DNA from: Candidatus Altimarinota bacterium
GTDB lineage: Bacteria > Patescibacteriota > Gracilibacteria > BD1-5 > UBA2023
Reading direction: 5' to 3'
Assembly: GCA_028689065.1 (NCBI GenBank)
Contig: JAQTWX010000008.1
Location: 1-44,474, forward strand
Length of the DNA: 44,474 nt
Shown here: one piece after another, positions 1 through 21,016 of the stretch
Numbering within the stretch: position 1 is the first letter of the stretch
Layout of the letters: the number at the start of each line of letters is the position of its first letter
Program-made: the position numbers and the translations under genes
The notes under the pieces: generated by a model
Database searches by the model: none
The model's input: only the letters and a program-made list of their open reading frames with translations
Told to the model about the DNA's origin: nothing

Positions 1-779
1 ATTGAGGCATGTTTCCTTAGATCAAAGTAACCTTCACTGCCTAAACTTTTATATGTTTTAGCAACCATAATATCAAACATATTAAGCTTGGTATTTTGAG
101 TGTTGATTCTTTCAAAAACACTCAAAACATCGCTCAATTTTCAACTTTGATTTACAGCAATAACTTTTCTGTTTAAAATACTTTCTTCTAATATTTTAAT
201 TTTCTTTAATATCTCTACAAATAACTCACTATTAACCAATTTCATTATTTTTTCTATGTCGTTATCATAAACATATTTGAGCTTTATAAATCTTGAACCA
301 TATTTTTCGTAAATTTCTTTTTCATCTAATGTATCCAGTTCCGTTTCCTCTCATTCAATACATTCATCTCAATATATAAATTTCTGTTCTGAATCATCTC
401 AAAAATAGGTGCTATCAAAATATAGGTTTGCTATTTCTGGCTTCTTTGTATTTGTTCATTTATATACTTTTTTATTTGTAAAAACAAGCATTAAAGCCGT
501 TGTTCTTTGCTGACCATCAAGAAGATAATTAACATCACTTCAAGACTTTCATTCAGGATATTTTATTTCTTTTAAACTTCCTCAAACCCTTCTTCTGGCA
601 AGTTCATCTCATCACTCCCAAACTAAAATACTACTGATAGTGTAATTATTGTAGAGACTATCAATCAATAGTTTTATTTGAGATTTATCCCAAACAAATG
701 GTCTTTGAAATTCTGGCAAAAGGATCTGCTCTTTTTCGGCTAGTTGAATAAGTCATTTTACATTTAAATCATTGAACAT
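1..779 (-). CDS. DUF262 (GmrSD/ParB-like) domain protein, 3' part outside window
   Basis: The visible 259 residues are the N-terminal part of a DUF262 protein, a ParB/sulfiredoxin-fold family found in GmrSD-type modification-dependent restriction and other defence proteins. The diagnostic motif LLDGQQRTTAL is present at about residue 95, preceded by an LPEFQRPFVW segment near residue 20 and followed by VFERINTQNTKLN near residue 235. These are the usual family signatures. The start is the ATG at 779, because a TAA lies six bases upstream in frame. The reading frame needs many UGA codons read as Gly. A TATAAT box at 858-863 could serve as its promoter. The C-terminal part, which would show whether an HNH (DUF1524) nuclease follows, is cut off by the window edge. 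It lies directly downstream of a TOPRIM protein on the same strand, so the two may form a defence pair; that is inference. Confidence 0.85.
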
Positions 780-857
780 ATTTTATGCTTTAACTTATAC
801 AAATATATCTATAAACTTTCAATTTGGGTATTACAAATTATTAGCAAAAACGCGGGG

Positions 858-863
858 ATTATA
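858..863 (-). promoter_or_regulatory. Probable -10 box for the DUF262 gene
   Basis: On the minus strand a TATAAT hexamer is followed by CCCCGCG. A TTGTAA hexamer lies 16 bases upstream of it as a possible -35. The same TATAAT followed by a C-rich start region occurs before atpD. The leader to the ATG at 779 would be about 70 nt. The 780-988 stretch holds nothing else that I recognise. Confidence 0.45.
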
Positions 864-988
864 TAGATAATTCAAGCAATTACAAGGTGGGGGGATTTTT
901 AGAAATTTTTTTCTAAAAAAATTTATCTATTAAAAGTAGATATCAAAAAGAGTATAAGTAAAATTGGTTTTTATCAATTCGATTGATA

Positions 989-3900
989 TTAAGGCTTTTT
1001 AGCATTTACGATTATTTTTTCTACTAAATTAATAATTGGCAAGAAATTAATAAATAGTTCCTCCTTTATTGGAAAATTACCTCCAAAAAAAGTTCAGTTT
1101 AATAATTCATTTGAAAAAGTAGCCTTAGATTTACAAAAATCATCTTTTAAGGCAACGAATTCTCATCATCAAATTGATTTTTGTTTTTCCGTAAATAATT
1201 TCTCATTAAGTTTCTTATTCTTATCATCATCTATTCATTTCAGAGCATTATAAAATAGATGTTCTATTTCAAGTTTTGAATCAAATCAATAATCATTTCC
1301 AGAATCTTTTAATACCTGATCTTTGATATTATTGTTTGGGACAGGGAGCAAAAAAGCATAAATATTTTTATTTTTATGTTTTTTACATTTTCACTTATGA
1401 TAATCAATTTCGAAATCATCATATTTTCATCCATCTTTCTTGGAATAATTTATATGTTTTAATTTTAAGTATTGATCATATCAGGTCATATCAAAATCAA
1501 ACATTCAGATGATTGATAATCATTTCGGTAAATCAACACTTTCATAGTGTTCTAAAAATGACAGAACTCAACGACTTCATCATCCTTGAATAATAAAAGG
1601 ATGGATCCCGCCTTCATTTAAAGGCAAACTATAATAATAATTCAAGTAATTCTTATCACTTTCCCCTTCAACAAACAATATACAGCTTAAATTTTCTACT
1701 TTTAAAATTTCTTTGAAAGCAACAATTGCTTGATTTGTTTCCAGGAGATTATTCTTAATACTAATATTCTCCAATTCTAATTTTGAATTTTCTCTTTTTA
1801 AAAAAGTTATTTCTTCTGCCATCGCAACTATCTCATCTGAGCCATCTTTTTCTTTGCTGTAAACATCTTTATATACTTTTGCTACCTCTGCTTTGCTATA
1901 TTTCTCAGAATAATCATTTATAAGTTTATCTAAATAGTTAATTTTGAATGAGATCCTAATTTCGTTATCTTTTAAAGATAGATCGTAAATGTACTTTTCC
2001 AATAGGAATATACTCTCAAGTTTTTTCTTTTCAATTCCTTCATAAAAGTAAAAAACTGCTTTTTGTATATACTTTCAAAAGGTTTTATATTCCTTTGCTT
2101 CTTCGCTTATCTCAAATGAATATTTCAGAAGCTTCTTTATTTCTTCCTCAAAAGATAAATCTCTTATATATCTGAAAGCAAGTATAAAATTATCATCATC
2201 TCTTCAAAACCAAGAAATCTCAGATTCCAATGGGGAAACACCCCTTGCTATTAAAGTATTATTTTCTGGTTCGATAAAGCTCACTTCCTTTTTTAGTTGC
2301 CTAATATACCAATCAATTATATCTTTCTTGTTTTTAAGGTTTTCAAATCGTTTTAATAAAAATTTACCCGATAATGAGGCTATCTTGAAATTATGAGACT
2401 CAATAGTATTTGCCCCCTTCGATAAAATATCTAGAAAATAATTACTTTCAGTTTTGTATTTATTGAATAGACCTAATAATTGATCCTTACTTCATATTTC
2501 TACAAGTTTTTCAGCTACATACTCCCTATCGTATCATTTATATTCAGAATTATTTATGATATTCAAAAAAGTATCTTCAAGATGTTTTTTATCGTGTTTA
2601 ATAAAATCATCCTTATAATTTTCGTAAAAAATAATAAAAGGTTGAATATTAAAATACCTGAGATCATCTTTTGTTCTACTTCCATCAAAAATGGAAACAA
2701 GATATTTTACTTCATCCTTATTAAGGTTTCAGTCAATTACACTTTTTATAATTTCTATATCATCACTGTAAGTAAATGGAATATATTTGATAGCCTTTTC
2801 TCTGACTTCTTGTAGGTTAAATCAAAATACTTTATAAAGTCTCAGACACCTTAGAAAAGTTCCATTTACTACAAATTGATGAGTTGTATATGATGATGAA
2901 TTCTCATTTTTCTCCGTATAATGAAGTTCATATAAATCCGGATTTGATGCATCCAGTTTAAAAAATCGTTTTATGTGTTTTTTTACTAAACGCCTAATGT
3001 TTTTATCAGTTTTAAAATCTGGATATTCACTATTTTCAAATTGATATAATAAATACTCACTTATTCATTTTGATGGTCATTTCCTTTTTTCAGCCTCTTT
3101 TATAGCTTCGATTCACTTATCGAAATCTCTTCTTTCTTTTGTTTTCCTTCTTTTTTGTTCAGTATTAACTTTTTTTAAGTATTTTTGTCTTTCACTTAGT
3201 TTTTTGTTAAAACTTTCATATTTTTTAAATTCCAGTTTCATTATTTCTTTATCTTCTCGTTTTCATCATTCGATATATTCATATATATGAACATCATAGA
3301 AATTACTTCAAGATATTTCACATAGCTCTTTTACATTTTCTATCCTTAATAAGTCTGATATTATTTTTATAATATCCCAGAAAACATAAATTGTGTTTTT
3401 GGCAGTTTTAATTACTTCTATGGATAAATCATTATAAATATTTCAAAGATATTTACTCAATTCCAAACCAAATTCACTTTTTAAAAATTTAGAAACCATC
3501 TCATTAAATCTATGATTAGAAGTCTTTCAGTCTTCTAATTTTTTAAAAAGACTTAAAAATAGATCTTTCAGTCTATTGTTTATAGTAGGATCTGAAAGAG
3601 ATTCTATATTTTTTATGAATTTCTTGGTTTCTTTTAAATCCAATTCATTCAAATAAAGTAATCAATTTTTAGATAGTAGATCGAGAAAAATCGAGAAGAC
3701 ATCTTTATTGAGATTCAATAAATAAGCAATTTGAGACTTATTTATGTATTTATTTCCAAATTGTGTTTCTTTCTCTAAAAATTCATTGAAAGATTTTATA
3801 AAATATTCTTTTTCATCAAGTGATTGAAATATATCTATAAATTGCCAAACAATATTATCATTACTATAATGATCGTATAGTTCTTTGAATATTTCTTTAA

Positions 3901-4240
3901 ATTTAGATTCTTTCTTCTTTTCAAGAAAAAATTTAATATAACTCAAATAGAGACTTTTATTATCAAGTTTATCCTCCAAATATTTAAGTCTATAATTCTC
4001 AATTATTTCATTTTTATAAGGGTCAGGAATTTTATTTTCATCCAGTAGTTTCTTTAATATATCATATATATCGACTTGATAAGCCCCTATATCAGTATCT
4101 CCTTTGTAATTTCAGAGTATATAGTCCTTGTCTTCGGTATTTTGAAAATTGAATTCATCTACTAATTCCATTTTAGCTATTTCACTCAGATGAAATGAAT
4201 CTTTTTTTATCTGTTCGAGTTTCTCTATAAAAGGAGACAT
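989..4240 (-). CDS. Large helical protein with C-terminal TOPRIM (OLD-type nuclease-like) domain
   Basis: A 1083-residue protein that closes only when UGA is read as Gly. Residues 1 to about 840 look mainly helical, rich in Lys/Glu/Leu, and show no P-loop, so the usual ABC ATPase of OLD/GajA proteins is absent. From about residue 846 a TOPRIM-type domain is visible: LFVEGESDKNYL supplies the acidic residue, a Gly-rich GGGSRGV turn follows, then MFDFDMTGYDQ gives the DxD motif, and an EIEHLF segment sits where OLD-type TOPRIM domains carry their C-terminal acidic motif. Such domains bind Mg2+ and cut or unwind nucleic acid. Two of the Gly in the GGG turn are UGA-coded. The start at 4240 is the first ATG after an in-frame TAA. 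I do not recognise the N-terminal region. Role in phage or plasmid defence is an inference from the fold and the neighbouring DUF262 gene. Confidence 0.8.
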
Positions 4241-4383
4241 ACTTTTTATTTTTTAATTGATTATCCTAAAAAATATAATAGGAATTATAGAGAAAAGCTC
4301 ACTGAAAGCAAACGAGAAATTTTTCAAACTGGTTCAAGAATAATTCCCCAAATTTGGGGCATTATTCTATTTTTATCACAGTG

Positions 4384-6300
4384 TTAATATTTCAATTCAC
4401 TAACGGTCCTTTTTCCATTATCTTCTTTATACATAGGAATATCTACAAAACCATAAACCGTAAACTTTTTATTTATTTTACCATCATTGGAAGATACTTC
4501 TACTATACAGCTTTTATTTCACATAAGGGATTTTCTACAATTGAAACCATAAAAATGGTTATCAGTCTCTTTTTCACCGATACTAAATTTGTAAGAAATA
4601 TTCATTAGGTCAATTTCCTTAGATGATGGACCGCCTCTTTCCCATAAGTCCAAAGATGAAATTGTGTGTTTTGTTCCTATATATTTTGAATTACAAGGGT
4701 TTGGTGTATATTCGCAATAACTAGTAATATTTGATTTTTCCAATATAACATCCAATTCACTTCTTTTCTTTTGATATATTTCGTCTTTGAGCCTACCGGA
4801 ATAGAGAACCGCAATATTTTCTGTTTTTCCATAATCAAGGTTCCATATATCAGATAATTGACCGTTCAAATAATCATTTACATATCATACAGAAGTCCAA
4901 TTTGGATTTATTTTATCGTGAAGAGCTTGGCAGGAATTTTCTAGTTTTCCAATGACATCTTGCGAAGTAGCAAGAACCTCCTTTGCTTCACCTACAATAA
5001 CAGGAACAAAAGCCTTATTTGAAGCATAATCACAGGCTAATACTGAAAGATTATTTGGTTCTCCTGTCGTTTCATTCACAAGGCTTATAAATTTAAATGG
5101 TGAGGTATTATCAAGCACAAGCTGATTTGAGGTAAGTGTTGTGAATTTACGAGCCTTGTCAGTGGTTGAAAAAACTGAGTTTTTAGCATAAATATCAATG
5201 GATGGAAAACTTGTTGGAACAAGTTGTATTTCTGAGCTTGCCCCTATTTTCATAGCGTAAGCCCTTGTTTCCTTGTCCCCATCTTCATTCAGTCAATTCA
5301 TCGCTATTGTGGTCATCAAAAGAGCCAACTCTTGTTTCTTTTTCTGTTCTATTTTATATCCCATATCTCCCTTCATATAGCTATTTGTGAGAGAGTCAGC
5401 CAAGGCTCATTTTAGATCCACTGGTTTAAAAGAATTTCTGACATTAACAGCATAGTTTGATTTAACTGAACCGATTACCAAACTTCCGTCATTTATACGA
5501 TTCATAGGCACTGATTGAATATAACATCGCAGTTGTGATTTTCCCTTCATTGCATTAGAGTAGTCATCTAAGTACTTTTGAAGCTGATCACGAATTTCCT
5601 TATTACTTTTTAAAGAAGGAAATGTAAATGTTTTTTCGTTATGTTGAAATCATAAAGAAGATGAAAGGGCTACCTCATCCGTATACGCTTTCTTATTAGC
5701 ATCAAGTTCTTCATTTGTGAATTTAATAAATCCAACCTGTTCGAAGGAATTAACAAATGTAGGATAAGCGTTGTTAGATGTTCTAATATCCCCAAAGTAT
5801 ATCCTAAGTTTTTTCAAAACATTGTTTGCTATGCCTGCCGTAAGGCACTCATTAATAAATCCAGATGATTGAAGTTTCCAGAATTCATCATTATTTACAT
5901 AATTTTCAAGGTGATCAATCACCCAATCATATATTTTTGTGTCTCGATCCTCCGAGGGTAAATTTCTATTCCGTTGCCAGTTAAAATATCCAGGAGGGTT
6001 TATAGGATCGCCATCAGCTTCCTGTTCTGCCTTGGCATAACCTGGAACTTTTTTTATGCAGGCAACAAGAGATTTATTAGTCAGATTAGATATCTGAGAA
6101 AGAATTTTATTCTGAGTTGCTTCCGACTTGTTCATAAGAACAACCTTGATCTTTTCAGTTATCTTATCTCCCTTATTTGAAATAGTATTATGAAAATTAT
6201 TCCTTGTTTGTTCTATTGAATTTTCAGATGCTAAAACATTAAATACACTTACTTGCGAGAGTATTAATAAGATAAGTATTACGGATGATAATTTTTTCAT
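4384..6300 (-). CDS. Secreted protein of unknown function (638 aa)
   Basis: A protein with a clear N-terminal signal peptide (MKKLSSVILILLILSQVSVFNVLAS, cleavage likely near residue 25) and no later membrane helix that I can see. The mature part contains several scattered cysteines (for example CEYTPNPC near residue 550), which would suit disulphides outside the cytoplasm. Three in-frame UGA codons join segments that look broken under the standard code. It starts 29 bases after the stop of the upstream zinc-finger membrane protein, so the two are probably cotranscribed. I recognise no family. Its place inside a plasmid-like element suggests a surface or transfer-related function, but nothing in the sequence proves it. 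Confidence 0.75.
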
Positions 6301-6329
6301 AAAAAGGAAAAATAAGGAGTTAAAAATAA

Positions 6330-6854
6330 TTATGCGTTTGTTTGAATAAATTTTGTAGTTTCATTTATTGTTTTTAATCTCTGTTTCATCTTCCAGACCT
6401 GATATGGTCATACAAACCCTCAGATGAAACAAGAAAAACCAAATTTGAAAGCTTTGCGTATAAATAGGGCTATAATTCACTCATTCACTCTAACAGTTAT
6501 AGAATTTGGATCTTTCAAAGAATTAATAAAAGTCCATCCATACATTATAAAAAATCAAAAATAGAGATATATAAGTCAAGATATCATTGCTTTGTTTTCA
6601 ATGTTAGGATCTCAATATGTTCAGTGATATTGATTAAACCCCATTCAGAATAAATAGAAACCTACGAGAATTCAGATAAGAGTATTTTTTATAAAAGTGC
6701 TATTTATTGCACTTTTTTCGTTTACTAACCTCACCAGATTACATTTAGAGCATACTGGTATCGTAAAAGCGCGGAAACACTCCTGACACAATCCTACTCA
6801 GCAATCTACACAGGTTCCAACAGCATCTACAATGGAATGTTTATGACATTTCAT
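6330..6854 (-). CDS. B-box-like zinc finger membrane protein
   Basis: A 174-residue protein with a short Cys/His cluster at the N-terminus (C3, H4/H6, C15, C18, C23, C26, C35 and C38), resembling the bacterial B-box zinc-finger arrangement that is often followed by membrane segments. After it come two hydrophobic stretches (about residues 55-72 and 88-108), then a third weaker one around 135-155, and a basic tail. At least eight Gly are UGA-coded. The ATG at 6854 was chosen because the zinc-ligand cluster starts immediately after it. It precedes the secreted protein gene by 29 bases on the same strand. The zinc finger may act in membrane recruitment or protein contacts; I cannot assign a specific role. 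Confidence 0.7.
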
Positions 6855-6867
6855 AGAAAGGATAGTT

Positions 6868-6906
6868 AAAAAAATAAGCCTCAGGAAACAGAGTTCCTAA
6901 GGCTTA
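6868..6906 (-). terminator. Intrinsic terminator after the primase transcript
   Basis: A stem with arms at 6873-6885 and 6894-6906 (one C-A mismatch, loop of about 8 nt) is followed on the minus strand by a run of seven T at 6868-6874. It would end transcripts coming from the primase gene before the zinc-finger gene starts at 6854. Confidence 0.7.
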
Positions 6907-6958
6907 TATGTTATCACATTATTAAGCAATCATAAGGGAAGCTGTTCGCCAGATGTTT

Positions 6959-7089
6959 GCTTACAACAACCTTTCGCTTTCTCGAATTCAATCGGGGAAA
7001 GTGGACGAGCACAGCTCCCCATTTTGATGATTGAATTCGTTAAATAAGTCCAGAAGTGGACAAAAAAATAGCGAAGGTTTATTGTAAGC
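6959..7089. other. Nested inverted-repeat structure (candidate oriT, origin or structured RNA)
   Basis: Three nested inverted repeats: outer arms 6959-6978 and 7070-7089 (20 bases, few mismatches), middle arms 6983-6993 and 7029-7039 (11 bases, perfect) and inner GGGG/CCCC at 6994-6997 and 7017-7020. A further small hairpin with a 5-bp stem lies at 7048-7061. It sits between the primase stop and the terminator at 6868-6906. The rest of 6907-7142 holds no gene. Base pairing is seen directly; the role is not known. Confidence 0.6.
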
Positions 7090-7142
7090 AAGATAATCAT
7101 ACGGAAAATCTGTGAAAATCAAATTTATTACAATTCCATAAC

Positions 7143-8672
7143 TTATTTATCTGTTTTAGTTTTATTAAAAACTACCCCATATTTCACATTTCCTATATCA
7201 AAATCCTGAGTAATACAAGAGATTTCTTGAATATTATTTCTTACCCTTTGAAAAGTATAATCTTCAAAGAATGTTTTTATAAATTCTTTATCTCTTTCAA
7301 AAATTTCCGTATTCTTATCAGCTATATTCAACCATTCCTTACACAGATAAAGATAGAATTTCAACCATTTCCCGTTAGTTGGTATAAGCAGAGCTCTTGT
7401 ATTTACAAAATGTCCCCCATTATCGATATTATTTTGAAGTTTTTTATCAAAAAAGTAGTCTGGAATGACTGAAAATAAGATCATTCGATCTGTTCATTTT
7501 CTGAATATTTCAAAACGAAGCATAGGGAAAAGTGTATTCTTTATTTTAGGAATCTTATCCTGAAAATCCTGAAGATACTTTATAAATTCATTAGATTTAT
7601 AAAGCATTCCTGTCCCCTTCATAAAATCCATTAAATGACACTTGATTTTTTCTCAATAAGGAAGGGCCGTATCGAGTTGCTTATGAGCAAATCGAAAAAA
7701 CTTTAAAATCGTTTGAATATCTTTTCCTGAGAGATTAGATTCCACTAATCACTTCTCAATATCTTTTGGTATTGGTATATTTCTTCATTTGCCTCCTGCA
7801 TCGAGAATTCAAAAATGAATCTTGAAAAAAGTCCAAGTTCTTGCGATAGACCTAGAATTTAACTCCTTTTCTTCTATTCCTGGCTTTTCTTTGAGAATTT
7901 CAGATCTATTAAAAGCCTTTACAATAGCGAAGTTCTCTCATTTATATCTGTTATGAGAGTAGTCATTTACATAATTTCACACGGGATCAATCTTATATCC
8001 ACTAGTCTTTTCTCCATTTTCAATAATCGTTTTATTATCTTCGGTGTATTTAATTCAAAGTATATCAAGCACTTTATGAATAGGAACAGAATTAACAAGC
8101 CTTAGTCTTTCTCAGATGGAACTAATAAGCTCTGACCCCTTTAATATCTGAACTCGACATTTTTTTGTATCTCCGGGTTTTTTGTGAAGGGATCAGGGTA
8201 TCCTTGAAATTCTTGAAAGATCAAAGATTTTATCATCAAGCACTAATCTAGTTGATGTGGCTATTTCGAGTGCCTTCTTTTTCCAGTCTTTTAAAAACTT
8301 TTCAGATTTTTCTTCCGTGTAAAATTTTTCATCATTCAAAATATACAAGTGAAATCAGTTCCTAGACTGTATTATAAAGTCAAACATATACCATATATCT
8401 TCAAGCTTTGCCCTCATACCTTCCAATGATAAGGGAAGATTATCTTTTAGGTCTATATCAAAGTAAAATAAAGGGAATTTATAGGCATTTTCAGCCTTTC
8501 TACTACATCAAGCAGGAAATCAGCAAATACTAAAAAAGAGGTTTGTGTGTTCTTTTTTATTTGAATTAATAATATCCACCGGCTGTATCTTTTTTGTATA
8601 TTCCTCAAAAAACAAACATCATTTTTTTTCAAAAAATGAAACCCAATCCTTAATAGTGTCAATATGTGCCAT
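7143..8672 (-). CDS. Archaeo-eukaryotic-type primase (replication protein of a plasmid-like element)
   Basis: A 509-residue protein with the hallmarks of the AEP primase superfamily, which makes primers for replication of plasmids, phages and archaeal or eukaryotic chromosomes. The metal-binding acidic pair is YFDIDL (D72 and D74), the His motif is SRNGFHLYI (H108), and the third motif is DLSRISRIPGSLHKKPG (residues 151-167), as in prim-pol proteins of mobile elements. The C-terminal 300 residues are helical and unassigned; no helicase P-loop is visible. More than ten glycines are UGA-coded. The ATG at 8672 was chosen as the first in the frame. Four iteron-like repeats lie 100-220 bases upstream, so the gene and a possible origin sit together. 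It likely initiates replication of the element; that is inferred from family and context. Confidence 0.8.
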
Positions 8673-8770
8673 AATTGTAATGGTTAATAAATAATAAAAC
8701 TTTGAAGAAAAATAGAGCTCTTATCTTTCTTCTTTTAAGAATTATATTAATGTCATTGAAAATTTTGACG

Positions 8771-8891
8771 AAAACCCGCACATTTTTTAAAAAAAGTTTC
8801 TGAAACCCGCACGCACTTTCCTGATTTTCCTTTTAAGTAAGGCATTTCTTCAAAAAACTAAAACCCGCACAAGACAAGGCATAACCCGCAC
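8771..8891. repeat. Four iteron-like direct repeats (AACCCGCAC), candidate replication origin
   Basis: The 9-mer AACCCGCAC occurs at 8773-8781, 8804-8812, 8862-8870 and 8883-8891, all in the same orientation, within 120 bases of AT-rich DNA upstream of the primase start. Short repeats of this kind next to a replication gene are typical of iteron origins bound by an initiator. The rest of the gene-free stretch 8673-9150 is AT-rich (for example 8939-8960) and otherwise without recognised features. Confidence 0.6.
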
Positions 8892-9150
8892 ATTTTTTGC
8901 CATACCTTTCCCTTTGGAATGCGATATCAGCCCCCATTTTAAATATATATAATATAACAAACAATATTAATTATCCTCGGAAGGTATTTCATAAATTGAG
9001 TAAATAAAAAAGACAAGAATTTAAAAAAGACGGTATTTCTAAAAACTCACCATAAAAAGACAAGATAGTGCTCTATGAGCCTCCAACTTGCTTTGTTATG
9101 GTTATAGAGTTTTTTCTTTTACCTTACTTTAATTCTTATCTTTTACCATT

Positions 9151-9486
9151 ATGACACAATTATTATGTAGCTTGACCGGGGCAGGGTTTTTAGATATTCA
9201 GTTTTTTGACAACCTTATAAATGAGTTCAGTTTAGACTTAGATTATGAAAACATAATTCAGGAGTTCTGACAGACGAATATAAACATATTTATCTATGAA
9301 GCCTATGAACAGGTTAAGAACTTATTCATAGAACAGAATTCAGAAGAAATTCAAAAGATTATTGAAAAAGATCCTAGTGAGGTGGATTATCAGATATTTA
9401 CAAATTATTGCGACAGCAATTTATGGTTTAATAATGAGGAAATTGAGACATTATTTCAATATTGGCGTGAAAAGATAAGGAACTAA
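9151..9486 (+). CDS. Small acidic hypothetical protein
   Basis: A 111-residue protein, MTQLLCSLTGAGFLD onward, rich in Glu, Asn, Ile and Phe and predicted by eye to be mostly helical. One in-frame UGA (in EFGQTN near residue 40) must be read as Gly. It begins 260 bases beyond the iterons on the opposite strand to the primase and ends inside a strong terminator hairpin, so it is a single-gene transcript. I do not recognise a family. Its position suggests an accessory or copy-control role, which is only a guess. Confidence 0.6.
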
Positions 9487-9502
9487 TCTTTATCTTTTTT
9501 TT
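9471..9502 (+). terminator. Intrinsic terminator
   Basis: Arms 9471-9478 and 9490-9497 pair perfectly over 8 bases with an 11-nt loop containing the TAA stop at 9484-9486, followed by a run of T to 9502. Confidence 0.7.
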
Positions 9503-9624
9503 CATAGTTTTTTTAAAACATTTCAAGAGTTTTTTATCAGATTTCCAAAAAGTCATATATACAATCCAAATGTTCAGGTGAAATAAATACACCTAAGCAT
9601 TTTAGTTATTAACTTTTTTACACT

Positions 9625-11973
9625 ATGAATGAACAATTTACCTATGAGGTATTCCCGAGGAGAATAGAAGACGAAACTTTCTTACTTGCCTCTATCAAAA
9701 CCGATATGAATGGACTTGTGAATATTAAGGCTGAATATACCTTTAAATACCTGTTATTCAGGAATGAGACTGGTATTTATTTGAAACAGTATATTTCTTC
9801 AAATTCAGAAGCCTGAATATCGTTTTTGCTTAATTTTTATGAGAAGCTCTATTCTGGAAGTATAGCATTTAAAAAGATAAATGATCCTTTGTTATTACAT
9901 AGATCAAAGCACCATTATACCGTTGCTCTAAAAAACAATAATGTTTTCCAAATTAAGAAGCCTGGGGAAATTTGACTGAATACATTTTCAAGTTCCACAG
10001 GACTTATTGAAAATGTTTTAAATGAGGCTTCTCTTGTATTGAAACAGGGTGAATTCATTCAGTTTGAATTCAAGATTATTCCATCTACCTATGATCAGTT
10101 TACCAAAGCATTCTTGTATGCAATCAAAGAAATTTGAAAATCTGAGGAATATAAGGAAGAGTTAAATAGTAGTTTTACAGATAAACTTTGATTTTTCATC
10201 TTTGATCTAAGGGTTTGTCATAATCTCGATAATGAAAAAGTATTCTGAGAGATTTTATATAAAAATTTGAGGTTGTATGATAGCAACTGGAATTATTACG
10301 AGTATAAATATTCAAATAAAGATTATCCAAAAATAGCAAACAGATACAAAAAAGGACAAATGGATATGTTTTTATCTCATTGATTAGTTTCTTTAATCTC
10401 TGAAAATAATAGATATGTAAAAAAGCTTCCTTCGAGTATTATTCCTATTAGCCCAACTTTGGCTTTAAATAATGGAACCTGAAAGAAAAAATGAGAATAC
10501 AAAACTTTCATATGAAAGTGATTTAGAGATTTAAGGCTGAATAATCAGGAATATTTATCTATTGACGAATGATTATTAAAAAATGGACACTTTCTGGGTA
10601 TTGGATCTACCTGAACAGGTAAAAGTTATTCTACCAGTTCTGTAATGGGGTATGATATCGTAAAATCTATCATAGATGATAGATTGAATTTTGAAAAAAA
10701 TGAAAGCCCAAGATCACAACATATTTTTATTGATCCACATTATAGTCTGGCTGGGAACATCTATAAAATACTTGAAGTCTTTAATAAAGATAGGAATTTT
10801 AAATACAATTCAGAGCTTCAAATTACGGAATATCAGAAAAATAATGATAATCAGCCATCACTAAACTCGTTATCAATTCCTCTTAAAAAAACAAAGTTAG
10901 TTTTTAATCCTCTTTATTCAGGAAGTCTTAATATGTCAAATCCTATCGAGTGTTTAAAGGACATAAATAGGATGGTCTCTGCTTGTTTGGACTGAGTTAG
11001 GGCAACACACTCAAAAACATCTTTTTGACCTCAAAATTCAGAAATTCTCTGAACTATTATTAGGCTGTTTATCATTTTCAATGTATTGAGAAATGAGGCA
11101 AATAAACAGTCTAATAATGATACTGGAAATTATAAGAGAATGTTAAATTTATGAGATATTCACGATTTTTTAGAAGATATGGAAATTTCAAAAAGTCTTC
11201 CTGATCAATTCAAGGATGATTTTAAAGAATGATTAACCCATAAAGAAGAAGAGATAAGAAATATTATAAAAAATCTCAAAAAGAGAATTGATTATTATTT
11301 AGAACAATTAAAAAAGAATGCCTGATATTTATCAAGCTCCATCAATAAAGTTTCTCCTTATTCAATGGAATTAAAAGAAACCTTTTGAAGCTGAACACTT
11401 CATACGAATTACTCACTAAATCTATCTGATTTTTATATAAAAAAGGACTATGAAAAAACCAATGTATTTTTCTTTAATCTCTGAGACTTTTCGATAAATG
11501 AGAAGAATATAGTTGCCGGCTTCATTCTTTCCTATATGTATCACTATTGAACTATCAAAAACCATTTAGACAAAAAGAACTTAGTTCAAACGAAAATATG
11601 GATTGATGAAGCCTCTGCTATATTAAATTGAGAATATATTTTAGAGATTATCGCTTCCAGCCTGGCAGAAATAAGGAAATATAATTTTTCTCTGAAATTT
11701 TTTGCCCAGACTATGGATCAGCATTTTTTTTCTTTGGTCTATCCTAATGTTTGAGCACTGTTCGTATTTTCAGTTGATTATAGACAAGCTGAACTTATTT
11801 TGAAAGATCTAAATTCTGGCTGTTCCTGAAAACTACTTCAACCAAATGATATAAGCAATAACCAAAGAGGTTGCTACTATTGATTTCTTAAATTTATAAA
11901 TGGATGAAATGCTACATTTCTTGTTGAATGATTTTCTATGAATGAAGAAGAAATTAAATACCTTATCTCCTAA
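9625..11973 (+). CDS. VirB4/VirD4/FtsK-type conjugation ATPase
   Basis: A 782-residue P-loop ATPase of the HerA/FtsK superfamily. The Walker A motif is GIGSTGTGKS (about residues 325-334), and one of its glycines is the UGA at 10612-10614, so the enzyme depends on the alternative code. A Walker B-like KIWIDEAS follows near residue 670, then FAQTMDQ, which resembles the sensor region of VirB4/TraG proteins. The N-terminal 300 residues have no obvious membrane helix. By hand count about 28 glycines are UGA-coded, more than half of all Gly in the protein. Twelve bases separate it from the next gene, so the two form an operon. Such ATPases energise DNA transfer or secretion through type IV systems. 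Which subtype it is cannot be decided by eye. Confidence 0.8.
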
Positions 11974-11985
11974 TCAAAAAAATCT

Positions 11986-12753
11986 ATGAAAAATACTACT
12001 TACAAGAACATTTTAATCACTGAAAGAGATGTTGATATTCTGAAACTCCTCTCTAAACTCAAAATCTGAGAAAGTGATTTAATCAGAGATTTACTTACCC
12101 CAGAGACAAGTCAAAATACCTTTACCAAGAGATTGAAGAAACTCGAAGATAAATGATTCATACGGTCGATTAACCAGGATCAGAGAGGCAGGACACGGAA
12201 TAAGCTCTATCAGCTCAATATCAGGCAAAAAAAGGCTGATATTGAAGCAATTATATGAAGTGAGATACTCGGAGGAACAGTAAATATGAGTTATAGCATT
12301 TATTTCCATACGCTATATATCTGATACTTTCTCAGATTTCTTATAAAACAGATCAAGAAAAAGAATGAAAACTATACTTTCATAGTAGATGATTTCATTT
12401 CTCAATTTGAATTTCAGAGATGGACAATGACCAGAAAAAAGAACGAATTGGATACCGTAATAATACCTGATTGATTATTGAAGGTATGAAGCAAAGTTCA
12501 ATGGATAGAAGTAGAGATAAAAAATTCGTTGAAAGATTTTAATAAGAAATTAAAGAACTACAAAGAACAGTATTTTTATTTATCAAAAGAGGGTTTTTGT
12601 GAATTCTTCAAAAAGGATGATAAACATACGCTTCTGATAATGGCTCCTGAATGGAAGATAGGATCATATACGGAAAGCATAACAAAGGAAAAGTTGAAAG
12701 AATATTATTCAGTTCAGCTTCTGAATGAAGATAATGTTTTAAAGTATCAATAA
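11986..12753 (+). CDS. Winged-helix plus nuclease-fold protein, replication-relaxation type
   Basis: A 255-residue protein. Residues 8-80 form a winged helix (ITERDVDILKLLSKLKIGESD then a KRLKKLEDKGFIR recognition-helix region and a basic wing). Residues 150-185 carry a restriction-endonuclease-like pattern: DTVIIPDGLL (D156, D162), then WIEVEIKN (E175, E177, K179), which fits a PD-(D/E)xK arrangement. This order matches the replication-relaxation (Replic_Relax) family found beside FtsK/TraG-like ATPases on plasmids and conjugative elements, where it is thought to nick or bind the origin. Five or more glycines are UGA-coded. It directly follows the ATPase and precedes the large hairpin at 12805-12907, which could be its DNA target. 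The target idea is inference. Confidence 0.7.
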
Positions 12754-12804
12754 GAAAGTATTCCTACCCCTTCCGTATTGACTTACTGACTTCTAAAAAT
12801 AACG

Positions 12805-12907
12805 CCTGCCAACCCCTCACACACTTTGCTAGAAGTATATTAACTTTAAACCGCGTTTTAAAGTTAATATACTTCTCTATCGGCAATGTGTGTGAGGGGT
12901 TGGCAGG
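12805..12907. repeat. 103-bp near-continuous hairpin or cruciform site
   Basis: Outer arms 12805-12824 and 12888-12907 are 20 bases and perfectly complementary, a short TTGC/GCAA step follows (12826-12829 with 12883-12886), and inner arms 12831-12850 and 12857-12876 are another perfect 20 bases around a 6-base loop CCGCGT. In total about 44 base pairs with one mismatch and one small bulge. The outer arm is GC-rich, the inner arm AT-rich. It lacks a T-run on either strand, so a simple terminator is unlikely. The remaining gene-free sequence 12908-13146 is purine-rich low-complexity DNA. Confidence 0.8.
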
Positions 12908-13146
12908 ATAGAGTAGTAATGGGATAGATGGATATTGGATATGATAATGAGATATAGAATAATAATAATATAATAATATATATAATAAGTTAGGTTAGGA
13001 GAGAGGAGAGGAGGAGACTGGAAGAAGAAAAAGTAAAAAAAGAAAAATGATGAGAGGAAAAAAGTGATGGAAAAAATGGACTTTTGTGTATAATGGCGAA
13101 AATGTTGAGTTGTGTGTAGTTTTTATTTTTTTAATGTTTTTGTTGT

Positions 13147-13728
13147 ATGTTGAGAACTATTGATTATAGAATGATTGAAAGTGAACTATATAAACAATAT
13201 TTTCAGGTTGGAAGAAGAATGTTAAGTTTTTTAGATTTATTTGAAACACTTTGTGAAATGGAAATTTATCATATTACAAGTGATATAGCTATTCCAATAT
13301 CAAAAGATATTTCTGAGGGATTAAATTTTAAAATTAAAGAATTGCTTTGAACAGAATTAAGATCTAGCGAATGACTTCAATCCCTGATTAATGGATTTTT
13401 TTGAACTTCAACCTTAAAAATTACTAATGATCATAATACTTCAATTGGTTTCAGTATCTCAAATAGAGGAGTTGCTTATTTTAGAAAAGCTAATGATCCA
13501 CTGATAAAAATTCAAATTTCATATATTCTCAAAAAAATATTCTGAGAAGATTTTGATCAAAAAATATTTAAACTTGAATTATCACAATCTCAACATCTTG
13601 GTATCAAAAAAATTGAGGAATTACTTGAAAAGTCTATTAAGAAATTCAATGATGATGAATTTAAGTGATATGAATTTAGAGGGAAATTAGAAGAGTTTTT
13701 ATCTAAAAATAAACCATTATTTCCATAA
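13147..13728 (+). CDS. Hypothetical protein at the element boundary
   Basis: A 193-residue protein with five UGA-coded glycines. It is helical and charged, ends in a Lys-rich segment (KKIEELLEKSIKKFNDDEF), and has no membrane segment or signal peptide. I recognise no family. Its base composition and UGA use match the element to its left, not comM to its right. It stops 26 bases before the first ATG of the truncated comM. It could be an integration- or maintenance-related gene by position only. Confidence 0.6.
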
Positions 13729-13754
13729 AATGTTTTAATAAACACTTTGTCCTC

Positions 13755-14618
13755 ATGGAAGGGCCTCCTGGATCAGGAAAAACTATGCTTGCCAAAGCAT
13801 TTGCTACTATTCTCCCTAATATGGATTTTTCAGAAATCGTCGATGTTTCAAAAATATATTCCGTCGCTGGACTCCTGTCTAAAGACCACCCGCTCATATT
13901 TACAAGACCGTTTCGCAAAGTGCATCATACCGCAAGTGGCGTGAGTATCATAGGAGGAGGACGAGATAGTCGTCCGGGAGAGATTAGCCTCGCTCATAAA
14001 GGAGTACTCTTTCTCGATGAATTTCTGGAATTTGATGGGAAACTCCTCGAGATGCTCCGACAACCGCTGGAAGATGGAGAAATAAGTATTAATCGAGTTA
14101 ATGCAAGCTATATCTACCCTGCAAAATTCATCCTTATTGGAGCACTCAATCCTTGTCCGTGCGGATTTCTCGGAGACAAGGAAAAATCCTGTATCTGTAG
14201 TGAATCACAGATAGAACGGTATCGTTCGAAGCTCTCGGGACCTATTCTCGACCGTATCGACCTCTTTATCCGAGTTCCACGCATAAAAGTCGAGGATTTC
14301 GGAGAGCATAAAAAAACACCGAAAACCTCCGTAGAGCTCAAAGAGCAAATCGAACAAGCCCGAGCTTTCGGAAAAACTCGATTTACTGGAACCAAGAAAA
14401 CCTCCAATGCCGAAATGAGCAATGAAGATGTGGAGAAGTACTGCACTCTCGGAGCAGAAGAGGATACCTTCCTCAAAAATGCAATAGAACGCCTTCAGCT
14501 CTCGACCCGGATATACTTTCGAATCCTGAAACTCGCCCGAACGATTGCCGATCTAGAAGGATCGCCTGATATAAAGCTCCTGCACTTGGCAGAGGCGTTA
14601 AGTTATAGGAAGATATAA
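13755..14618 (+). pseudogene. comM: comM (YifB), Mg-chelatase-like ATPase, 5' part missing
   Basis: The 287 residues match the AAA+ and C-terminal parts of ComM/YifB, the helicase that drives branch migration during natural transformation: GPPGSGKTMLAKAF (Walker A), SRPGEISLAHKGVLFLDE (Walker B region), NPCPCGFLGD with its conserved cysteines and LSGPILDRIDL, then the C-terminal Mg_chelatase_C helices. The family is usually about 500 residues; roughly 190-200 residues before the P-loop are missing. Homology in the same frame starts only a few codons before the ATG at 13755 (HFVL before MEGPPG), at the junction with element-like DNA. No UGA occurs in it and codon use is GC-richer than its left neighbour. 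A shortened AAA+ protein could still be made, but loss of the N-terminal domain argues for a disrupted gene. Confidence 0.75.
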
Positions 14619-14657
14619 ATTTAAAAACTCTCGGAAAATTCCGAGAGTTTTTAAATT
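14617..14657. terminator. Bidirectional intrinsic terminator
   Basis: A perfect palindrome with arms of about 17 bases (14620-14636 and 14641-14656), A-run on the left and T-run on the right, serves comM on the plus strand and the small gene on the minus strand. Confidence 0.8.
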
Positions 14658-14805
14658 AGTTTTCATTTTTCTTATTTTTCCCAAAAGAGAGAATAAAATC
14701 TACTATTGCTTTGCAAGCCTTCTTAATTGCAACAACTCATTCAGGAAATTCAACCGAAGTATCATAATCTTTTTTTGAACTTGTTGGATGTAATAAACTT
14801 CACAT
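14656..14805 (-). CDS. Small hypothetical protein (49 aa)
   Basis: A short frame starting MGSLLHPTSSKKDYD and ending in a basic tail, with two UGA codons read as Gly (residues 2 and 23). The middle FPEGVVAIKKACKAIVDFIL is amphipathic. It ends in the bidirectional terminator and begins 18 bases after the stop of the sigma-like gene upstream, so it could be the last gene of that transcript. No family recognised; short length lowers confidence. Confidence 0.45.
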
Positions 14806-17497: not shown

Positions 17498-17692
17498 TTA
17501 TACGATATATGTCTGATAAATATTTATCGGACCATTTTTATCTTCATACTTTTCGACGGTTGTTTGGATATGTCCTCGAAGAAAATCGGTAAGACTTTGT
17601 CCTTTTTGTTCAAGAATAACTTCAATTTTCTTCTTCTGAGCGTCGGTTACATAGAAGTTTACCGCACTTGCAAATTTTTTGCGTTCTGCCAT
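17498..17692 (-). CDS. Small ribbon-helix-helix-like DNA-binding protein
   Basis: A 64-residue protein from the ATG at 17692. The pattern is a short strand (ASAVNFYVTDAQKKKIEVILEQKGQSLTDFLR is the core: strand, helix, turn, helix), as in CopG/MobC-type ribbon-helix-helix repressors, followed by a short acidic tail. An upstream extension without a good start was not used. It has its own terminator. A decayed copy with a conserved upstream region lies at 20696-20794. It may repress its own promoter, in keeping with the family; that is inference. Confidence 0.65.
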   Translation of the reverse strand: MAERKKFASAVNFYVTDAQKKKIEVILEQKGQSLTDFLRGHIQTTVEKYEDKNGPINIYQTYIV

Positions 17693-17864
17693 GGTGTTTA
17701 CTATTAAAAAGAATAGACAAGATAAAGATATAGAAAAAGCAAGGAAAAGCAAGAAGATTTTTAAAAAATTTATAACTAGTTACGATATATTTTTTAAAAA
17801 AATGATTTTTTTAATAGAAATTAAAGAAAAGGATAGGAATTCTTCCTTTAATAGTGTTGTATTT

Positions 17865-18327: not shown

Positions 18328-20655
18328 TTATAGTTGATTTCCTATGTAATTTATAAAATATACCGGATCAAATTCACTGGCTGTAGGATTTGTATAAGTG
18401 TCAAAAATATATCCACTTGGTGGTCAGTATACAGTTCCGGTTCATGCTCAGCTTGTTTGAATATAAAAAGCAGAATCTCCAATGATTGTTGAATTACTTT
18501 GTATGGTTATACTTGTTAAATTATTTTCAGAAAAAGCAAACATTCCAATGTTAGTTACATTACTTGGAATACTTATATTATTTAACTTATTAATACTAAA
18601 ACTTCTATTTCAGATATTTGTTACACCAGTTCCAATAATCACACTTGTGAGTTGATTTCCATAAAAAGCATAATCACCAATACTAGTCACACTATCTGGA
18701 ATGTTTATGTTTGTGAGTTGTCAGCCATCAAAAGCATAATCACCAATATTTATTATAGTATTAGGAATAATAATTCATGTAAAAGAATGACCTTCAAAAG
18801 CATAACCAGCAATGTTTTTTACATCTACTCCACCAATTTGTGAAGGAATGGAGAGAATAGCTGGTGGAGGATTTCAACTAGTATCTATGTAACTTCCTAT
18901 TGTTCGAGTATTAGGATCAAAAGAAAAGAAAGAATTAACTACATAATTAGGAAGCATGGTTTTATCAAAAAATGTATTTGCTGTATCGTTTGTATAAACA
19001 TTAAATATATTTCAGAAACTTGGCCCGTACACCGTTCCATTTCCTATGGAATTTGTTTGTGAGCTAAATGCTCCTGCTCCAATGGTAGTACTACTACTAG
19101 GAAGGGTTATAGAAGTTAGAGAATTTTTATTAAAGGCCCAATATCCAATATTCGTCACACCACCTGGAATTATTATATTTGTGAGTTGATTATCATAAAA
19201 AGCATAATCTCAAATATTCGTCACACCAGTTCCAATTATTACATTTGTGAGTTGATTTCCATAAAAAGCATACATATCAATGTTTGTGATATTGTTTGGA
19301 ATAGTTACACTCGTAAGGAGATTTGTATCAAATACTCCCTCTCCAATACTTGTAAGACCAGTTCCAATTATTACATTTGTGAGTTGATTTCCATAAAAAG
19401 ATTCTAATCCAATTTCTGTAACACTATTCGGAATAGTTACACTCGTAAGGAGATTTGAATCAAATACACTTTCTCCAATAATAGTTACACTATTCGGAAT
19501 TACCACACTTGTTAATCCCTTGTTACTAAAAGCAAAATCTCCAAGCTTGAGCACATCTACTCCTTCAATTTGTGAAGGAATAATAATATCTTTTGTGCAA
19601 TTTATATCATCATAGTCTTCTATTGTATTGGAAATACTATTAAAAGTAAAACAAGTACTATCTGTTGGTGTTGGAGAGATTGGTGGAGTATCAGTATTAT
19701 TCTTAGATAACAAAATATTTCCGTTAAGCCAATAAACGACAGCATGCTCTCCAAGTTTTACTAATTCTTCTGTAGAAGAATTAGTAAGTGCTAAAATATA
19801 GGGTTGTATTTTTTTATCTGTAGATAAAAAGGTTCCAGAATAAGCAAGGGCGATATTTTCTGATAAGAGAATTTTCTCAGAATCTATTGACGGAAGAGAA
19901 GTACCTTTATAGAGAAACATAGGAGTAAATACAACTCCTCAAGAGTTTGATTCTTTATGAAAGAATATTTTATCCTTAAGAGTAGTTATATCAACAGTAG
20001 ATCCTATATTTTCTATTGGTGGTATTTCTGAAGTAATAATAGAAGGTGTTGCTATAACAAAAACATTTCCTCCTGTTTGAGTTTTTAGAACAACACCATT
20101 ATAATTTCCACTTATATATGAACGATCTGGTTTCCCTGAGGAAGCATAGGATTTTTCAATTATACTAAAAGCATCAGGTTTTATAAGAGATATATCTTTG
20201 CCTTCCCAATCAGCTTTAATTTGGTAAGCATTCCCATGTGCAAGACGGGAATAAATATATTCATTTGTGGAAATAAGAGGATCTGTGGGTTTTTTACTAA
20301 ATTTGACTCCATTAGTATTTAATATATTTATAACAGAATCACCAATAGTTCATTGATGCCAGAGAATTCATCCAGAATAGGTTACAGAAAAAGAATTTTC
20401 AGGAAGAGGATAGGTACCCATCTTTATTTGAACAATAGTCAATCATTTACCTATATTTACTATATCAGATGCTCTAGAGGCATCTCTTGCAATACTTGGA
20501 AATTCTGAAAGTTTTGTATAGCTTATAGTACCAAGAATAGCAAGAATACTTATGACTACTATTAATTCCGTAAGAGTAAACCCGAAGGAGATTTTACAAA
20601 GATTGGTAATTGTTTGGAAATTACTAATATTTTTTTCTTTATTTTGTGTTTTCAT
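18328..20655 (-). CDS. Type IV prepilin-leader protein with BspA-type leucine-rich repeats
   Basis: A 775-residue protein. The N-terminus is a type III (prepilin) signal: the [20 protein letters not shown] region gives cleavage at G25/F26, Glu at +5 and a hydrophobic pilin helix. Residues 55-300 are a unique region. From about residue 330 there are many BspA/LRR_5 repeats of about 23 residues (consensus [23 protein letters not shown]), in two blocks, each opened by a similar IPSQI-GVDV segment. Nine or more UGA-Gly codons are needed to read it through. Proteins with such repeats bind host surfaces or other cells; export through a pilus-type machine is implied by the leader. It likely forms a pseudopilin-like adhesin. 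Near-identical repeat DNA within the gene would allow repeat-number change by recombination. Confidence 0.85.
19225..19400. repeat. Identical 44-base direct repeats within the LRR gene
   Basis: Bases 19225-19268 and 19357-19400 appear identical, 132 bases apart, and encode successive leucine-rich repeats ([12 protein letters not shown]). Less exact copies lie around 18625-18670 and 19170-19215. Confidence 0.7.
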
Positions 20656-20695: not shown

Positions 20696-20794
20696 TTATA
20701 AAGTTTTAGATATATCAGATATTATACAAAATAAATACCTCTTGTTTAGAAATAACTTCAATTTTTCTTTTGAAGATTTTTTACGTTCTACCAT
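20696..20794 (-). pseudogene. Decayed copy of the small RHH-like gene
   Basis: From the ATG at 20794 the first eight codons (MVERKKSS) match the start of the gene at 17498-17692 (MAERKKFA). A stretch of about 40 bases is then missing and the match resumes with the AAATTGAAGTTATT segment before the frame ends in unrelated sequence. About 70 bases upstream of both starts are also alike (17693-17760 and 20795-20865). This is a duplicate with an internal deletion. The remainder of the gene-free stretch 20656-21016 shows nothing recognisable. Confidence 0.65.
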
Positions 20795-21016
20795 GATATT
20801 TACTCTTAAAAAGAATAGACAATATAAGGATATAGGGAAAACAAGAAAAAGCAAAAGGATTTTTCTCTTTACTTTTCCTCTCAATTTCATACCATTTTAT
20901 CAATCGGTGTTGATTTTATTATTTTCGCTAGATTTTTCATCTCTTGTTATACAAGACTATTTTTCAAAAAACTATCACAATACTCAAAAATCAAACTTAT
21001 TTAAAACCCTCTCTCT

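Follow-up and report, generated by a model that had tools for sequence, protein, structure and literature searches.

A putative mobilizable element integrated beside its serine recombinase gene into comM of a bacterium that reads TGA as glycine

The first 13.75 kb of a 44,474-nucleotide stretch from Candidatus Altimarinota bacterium (hereafter the window), which is contig 8 (C8) of the draft genome G000 (24 contigs totalling 1,038,859 bases; completeness 96%), hold a block of genes that appears to be the right-hand portion of an integrated element (Table 1). Along the block lie several cargo genes, an AEP-type primase beside four short direct repeats, a small partner gene, an ATPase of the HerA/VirB4/VirD4 class, a putative relaxase, a long hairpin and one further small gene, after which the sequence passes into the 3' part of the chromosomal gene comM. 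Long frames are obtained when TGA is read as glycine (genetic code 25), which by itself would suggest a bacterium of Gracilibacteria or Absconditabacteria type, and none of the core genes has its frame broken in that code. The block is AT-rich, as the original prediction had described it, with a GC content of 0.288 up to position 13754 and 0.369 beyond. Because position 1 is a contig end, the left edge of the block is not a biological boundary.

Table 1. Features of the element and its chromosomal target in the window (aa, amino acids; ORF, open reading frame; a slash marks the break)
Feature	Position	Strand	Basis or remark
Right-hand portion of integrated element	1..13754	.	comM split, GC, TGA-Gly usage
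DUF262/GmrSD N-terminal domain gene, cargo, cut by contig end	3..779	-	Pfam PF03235 2.6e-29; PADLOC HEC-05 2e-22
1083-aa protein, cargo, TOPRIM-like C-terminal motif FVEGESD...DFD	989..4240	-	Motif by eye only
698-aa predicted secreted protein, cargo	4384..6480	-	ORF; true start probably downstream of listed GTG
174-aa zinc-ribbon/B-box-like membrane protein	6330..6854	-	Weak Pfam match; weak relative in G074 near AEP
AEP-type primase (primase-polymerase), candidate replication protein	7143..8672	-	Motifs, PHROG, relatives
Four direct repeats AACCCGCAC, iterons, candidate replication origin	8773..8891	+	Starts 8773, 8804, 8862, 8883
orf111, small conserved partner gene divergent from primase	9151..9486	+	Relatives at same place on C19 and in G052
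782-aa HerA/VirB4/VirD4-class ATPase	9625..11973	+	Sequence profiles and model
Replic_Relax (PF13814, MOBC-type) putative relaxase, winged helix and PD-(D/E)xK-like domain	11986..12753	+	Pfam, profile, model
103-nt near-perfect hairpin, candidate origin of transfer (oriT) or other DNA signal	12805..12907	.	52 bp after relaxase gene
orf193, last element gene before right junction	13147..13728	+	ORF; no family match
attR core, ATG common to both junctions	13755..13757	+	C5 ...CCTAATG/TTATG..., C8 ...CCTCATG/GAAGGG...
comM 3' part (Mg-chelatase/ChlI), host target gene	13758..14618	+	Pfam PF01078 1.5e-74

The block ends sharply at a truncated comM, slightly to the right of where the original prediction had placed the break: chromosomal homology resumes at about 13750-13757, and the Pfam Mg_chelatase match from 13755 onward starts within the domain. 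The N-terminal half of the gene, with its ChlI domain, is found at the end of contig 5 (C5) on the minus strand, from C5:3267 down to C5:2602. This piece ends in ...ATATCCTAATG and is followed by TTATGTTCATAAA, and the window piece resumes at 13757 after ...TTTGTCCTCATG. Joined at the ATG common to both junctions, the two halves give 1527 bases in frame whose sole stop is the final one, and the attP site predicted from the two junctions would read ...TTTGTCCTCATG running directly into TTATGTTCATAAA.... A 700-bp comM query of both flanks splits between C5 and C8 in G000 and matches without interruption, at 76-82% identity, in every one of the six other members of the genus (two rows of the comM-join alignment stand in reverse orientation), a result that speaks for an insertion. 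Because the halves rejoin and six relatives are uninterrupted, the insertion is specific to G000 and a chimera is very unlikely. Both junctions of an integrative element are identified here, and its target gene is intact in relatives.

Contig 5 also provides the left end of the element that was to be sought beyond position 1. A full-length large serine recombinase (LSR) of 624 aa is encoded there (C5:651-2525, minus strand), its start 76 bp from the junction. In Pfam it has Resolvase (PF00239, 3e-25) and Recombinase (PF07508, 5e-21) domains, it matches a phage integrase PHROG at 5.5e-56 over most of its length, its catalytic motifs are intact, YVRVS and LSR included, and no other protein of the genome matches PF07508. 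The insertion into comM is explained by the position of this recombinase at the other side of the break. Beyond the LSR lies a staphylococcal-nuclease-like gene that is cut by the end of contig 5. The sequenced element comprises about 2.6 kb (G000:C5:1-2601) and the 13.75 kb on C8, at least 16.4 kb in all, plus a gap of unsequenced DNA; where contigs of this assembly join they overlap by 127 bases, and C5:1 and C8:1 overlap none of the other contig ends compared. TGA accounts for 49% of glycine codons (133/272) in eleven element genes from the two pieces and for 7% (26/362) in ten chromosomal genes (Fisher p = 3e-34), and GC content is 0.28-0.29 in the element against 0.37. This TGA usage is similar in the C5 and C8 pieces, and in both far above that of chromosomal genes, which supports the view that the two pieces belong together. 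Taken as a whole, the split gene, its intact counterparts in relatives and the recombinase at the break leave us close to certain that a serine-recombinase element integrated site-specifically into comM, and they bear out the original claim of an integrated element beside chromosomal genes.

Two more C-terminal pieces of serine recombinases run off contig ends elsewhere in G000, one at L034 (contig C22) 14866-15636, where it adjoins trmD, and one at L026 (contig C12) 7086-8135, with Zn_ribbon_recom matches of 8e-7 and 0.005, respectively. Insertions of this recombinase kind thus probably number three or more in the genome.

The primase has the motifs FYFDIDLKD, SRNGFHLYI and LSRISRIPGSLHKK, kept in its closest relatives, in which, reading the alignment by eye, we recognise the DxD, sxH and third catalytic motif of AEP; the more distant proteins of genomes G073, G074 and G076 are without the histidine of motif II. 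It matches the PHROG 'DNA polymerase/primase' at 4e-6, has no Pfam match and nothing credible in the PDB by sequence, and against phages gave one marginal match, to a phage primase. Its relatives are a copy on another contig of the same genome, C19 (89-92% identical), and a protein of G052, a genome of the same order but a different family, with 40% identity across its N-terminal part. Beside the primase gene lie the spaced direct repeats expected of an iteron replicon: perfect 9-bp copies that are absent elsewhere in the window, in number beyond the 2 copies of a comparable 9-mer that 500 shuffles never exceeded. On C19 this region is about 95% identical and all four AACCCGCAC copies are kept. 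At the equivalent site in G052 there are three copies of TTATACCATTT, unlike in sequence, with start-to-start spacings of 32 and 55 where the window has 31 and 58. A layout that is kept while the iteron sequence has changed is as expected if a replication protein and its cognate iterons diverge together, and we infer from these comparisons that primase and iterons may form a co-diverging replication system.

The neighbouring ATPase has its N-terminal domain fused to the motor, whereas in G052 and in a further genome, G008, the two are separate genes. In Pfam the window protein gives only a DUF87 match short of the curated cut-off for the family, and its relatives in G008 and G052 match PF01935, the HerA central domain, above cut-off. 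By sequence, its profile matched only HerA in the PDB. By structure, the best Foldseek match of the model is VirB4/TrwK over the whole length, and VIA-align gives DndH (Z 17.9), TrwB (17.4), VirB4 (16.8), DotL (16.3) and HerA (16.1). Compared with its counterpart on C19 (L021 15820-18177), the protein is a mosaic, with residues 1-300 about 90% identical and the motor only about 52%, a pattern that suggests recombination between elements.

The putative relaxase encoded next to it belongs, by profile comparison, to the MOBC relaxase family PF13814. Over 202 columns, near full length and with the winged helix included, a profile built from four relatives aligned with twenty proteins of that family from the phylum at a probability of 97.5% (E 5e-12), and ten column-shuffled controls reached a probability of 0.1-0.2%. 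D162, E175, E177 and K188 are invariant across the four relatives. The model of the C-terminal domain (residues 98-255) finds folds of the PD-(D/E)xK type, the best being the nickase N.BspD6I at a middling Z of 7.8. CONJscan uses PF13814 for its MobC relaxase, and in streptococcal integrative mobilizable elements (IMEs) this family accompanies VirD4 proteins (PMC5357655); relaxases of the MOBC type share a kinship with restriction endonucleases (PMC11389934). The hairpin just after this gene folds as DNA with z = -15. It is kept on C19, where four pairs are changed on both sides and 97% of pair cells are standard, although, from just two sequences, 29 of 500 shuffles equalled these covariation counts. 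Gene conversion between the arms could give the same pattern, so the paired changes are no more than suggestive. By its position the hairpin could be an oriT, for which a terminator is the plain alternative; in G052 and G008 the stretch behind the relaxase gene showed no hairpin of equal strength, and Rfam gave no match over window 1-14700.

Most of what the original prediction had named in this module is upheld: the AEP-type primase and the iteron-like repeats, which together support its description as plasmid-like, the nuclease-fold protein of replication-relaxation type, and the giant hairpin. Its conjugation-type ATPase stands as a member of the HerA/VirB4/VirD4 class by profile and fold. 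The term 'conjugative' stays an inference, as no mating-pore genes are seen on the sequenced parts.

The core of the module (primase, iteron region, orf111, ATPase, Replic_Relax gene and hairpin) recurs on C19 at 76-88% DNA identity, with the relaxase candidate 91% identical. In G052 the core genes are rearranged and lie beside an LSR, and G008 has the ATPase, the relaxase and one small gene. In total, 3-4 of the 353 genomes of the class carry the module (G000, G052 and G008, with G073 contributing an N-terminal ATPase piece only). No relative was confirmed in a genome contig collection or IMG/VR, and tblastn of relaxase, ATPase and primase against a plasmid collection gave no match.

Several observations concern these copies themselves. 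On C19, chromosomal homology stops at L021 4074, and from that point on the sequence belongs to the second copy of the element or to its cargo; a glycosyltransferase gene there (C19:2533-4074) stands in 4 of the 5 genomes of the genus compared directly before the hflX-like gene that lies here at window 21017. A perfect, terminator-like 34-bp palindrome marks the start of the C19 element (L021 4110-4143), and a similar sequence occurs in G026:C3. The C19 element also encodes a 1064-aa protein with many hydrophobic spans (L021 8325-11519) and a 237-aa partner (7590-8303), both conserved in the G052 element; they are candidates for transfer-channel or surface parts, and the window copy may hold them in its gap. 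The related element of G052 lies between two serine recombinase genes that point the same way (L058 1-281 and 16568-18052), in what looks like a tandem integration.

We read these features as an integrative mobilizable, possibly conjugative, element, with a probability of roughly three in four, the transfer part being the more conjectural; that the element is or was mobilizable by conjugation we think somewhat better than an even bet. In such an element the LSR would join attP to an attB in comM and would also excise the element, and the resulting circle would be copied from the iteron array by the AEP primase. Transfer would start with a nick that the nuclease of Replic_Relax/MOBC type makes at an oriT, which may lie at the hairpin, and the strand would then reach a mating channel through the VirB4/VirD4-like ATPase. 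That channel might be supplied by a type IV secretion system (T4SS) to which a chromosomal VirB4-like gene (C5:21446-22366) belongs, in line with the survey of the phylum (PMC12102498), or might be built from parts encoded in the gap. It is fair to set out what weighs against this interpretation. The stretch between C5:1 and C8:1 is unassembled, so that assignment to one element is by parsimony and composition, and, with a second module on C19, the two copies could have recombined. The att half-sites have a dyad symmetry no better than shuffles and only ATG as common core. Taken alone, the relaxase candidate scores 23.0 bits in Pfam, below the cut-off of 25.3. The structure models (mean pLDDT 63 and 56) are of low to middling confidence, the alignment scores of the ATPase are too close to place it among VirB4, VirD4 and HerA, and, as noted, no mating-pore genes were seen on the sequenced C5 and C8 parts.

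The alternative that survives best, though we hold it less probable than continued mobility, is a plasmid or mobilizable element that did integrate through its LSR but has since lost its mobility, its replication and transfer functions being relics or serving maintenance only. The lack of a mating pore on the sequenced parts and the rarity of the module in the class fit such a relic, as does the finding that relaxases of Patescibacteria mostly do not lie near virB4, conjugative potential being thought rare (PMC12102498); against it, the core frames and the LSR catalytic motifs are intact, and iterons and relaxase are conserved between the window and C19 copies while their flanks differ. An anti-phage defence pair on a genomic island is unlikely. 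HerA-DUF4297 and SIR2-HerA complexes likewise set a HerA-class motor beside a nuclease-fold protein, and the HerA-class sequence and fold matches of the ATPase, the PD-(D/E)xK fold of its neighbour and a DUF262 gene in the same block would suit such a pair. However, the nuclease aligns with Replic_Relax proteins across the winged helix as well, VirB4/TrwK is the best whole-length Foldseek match of the ATPase, PADLOC offers for it only a weak mad8 match, and the two genes travel with primase, iterons and LSR, a context of replication and integration. We find still less to recommend a prophage or phage satellite with a serine integrase: the LSR matches phage integrases and the primase a phage primase family, but capsid, portal, terminase and tail genes went unrecognised among the proteins of C8, C5 and C19, and the IMG/VR scans gave no relative. 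That C8 wrongly joins foreign DNA to the chromosome, as could happen in a draft of 24 contigs and had been raised with the original prediction, is scarcely credible when on each of two contigs the break follows the same codon of comM, the joined parts of the gene read through without an internal stop, and a recombinase lies at one break.

The remaining genes of the block are largely without recognised kin. The putative defence genes of the original prediction are weakly supported: the truncated DUF262 gene is HEC-05-like, but the 1083-aa protein has no relative in Pfam, PADLOC or the PDB, and the 698-aa protein has no convincing family match. Further along the window, a small repressor-like gene is repeated in direct orientation, in diverged form, on either side (17498-17752 and 20742-20860) of the gene for a repeat-rich protein of 775 aa (18328-20655), an arrangement that may be another inserted block.

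The AbaR resistance islands of Acinetobacter are transposon-derived. They too are mobile DNA interrupting comM (PMC7508600), whereas here a serine recombinase stands at the junction. Streptococcal IMEs with MobC (PF13814) and a VirD4-type coupling protein (PMC5357655) resemble the element in their site-specific integration, in a PF13814 relaxase beside a conjugation-class ATPase and in that mating-pore genes are not seen; the present element differs in its AEP primase and iterons, an ATPase with a VirB4-like N-terminal part, a relaxase too diverged for the Pfam cut-off, an att site in comM and a code-25 host. In a survey of Patescibacteria, the same phylum, MOBC was the commonest relaxase, and relaxase genes had a coupling protein nearby more often than they had virB4 (PMC12102498); G000 too has a chromosomal VirB4-like gene, but its relaxase is part of a bounded element that has a replicon of its own and was integrated by a recombinase.

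Integrative mobilizable and conjugative elements are known in general, but in bacteria that read TGA as glycine they are hardly described. What this locus adds, in a lineage whose code is its own, is a relaxase candidate just under the curated threshold that comes with a conjugation-class ATPase, a replicon and a recombinase. Because half of the glycine codons are TGA, expression in standard-code hosts is hardly possible, and circulation is expected among code-25 bacteria. The recombinase, its comM site, the primase and the iterons offer starting material for first vectors in these bacteria. More tentatively, and with the odds rather against us, there may be a family of code-25-adapted LSR integrative elements in Gracilibacteria-type bacteria, whose compact module of a diverged MOBC relaxase and a fused VirB4/coupling ATPase uses the chromosomal T4SS, with the hairpin as transfer origin. 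If so, it would be a native vehicle of gene exchange among these epibionts, and its relaxase would be one of the 'very different relaxases' missed by current tools.

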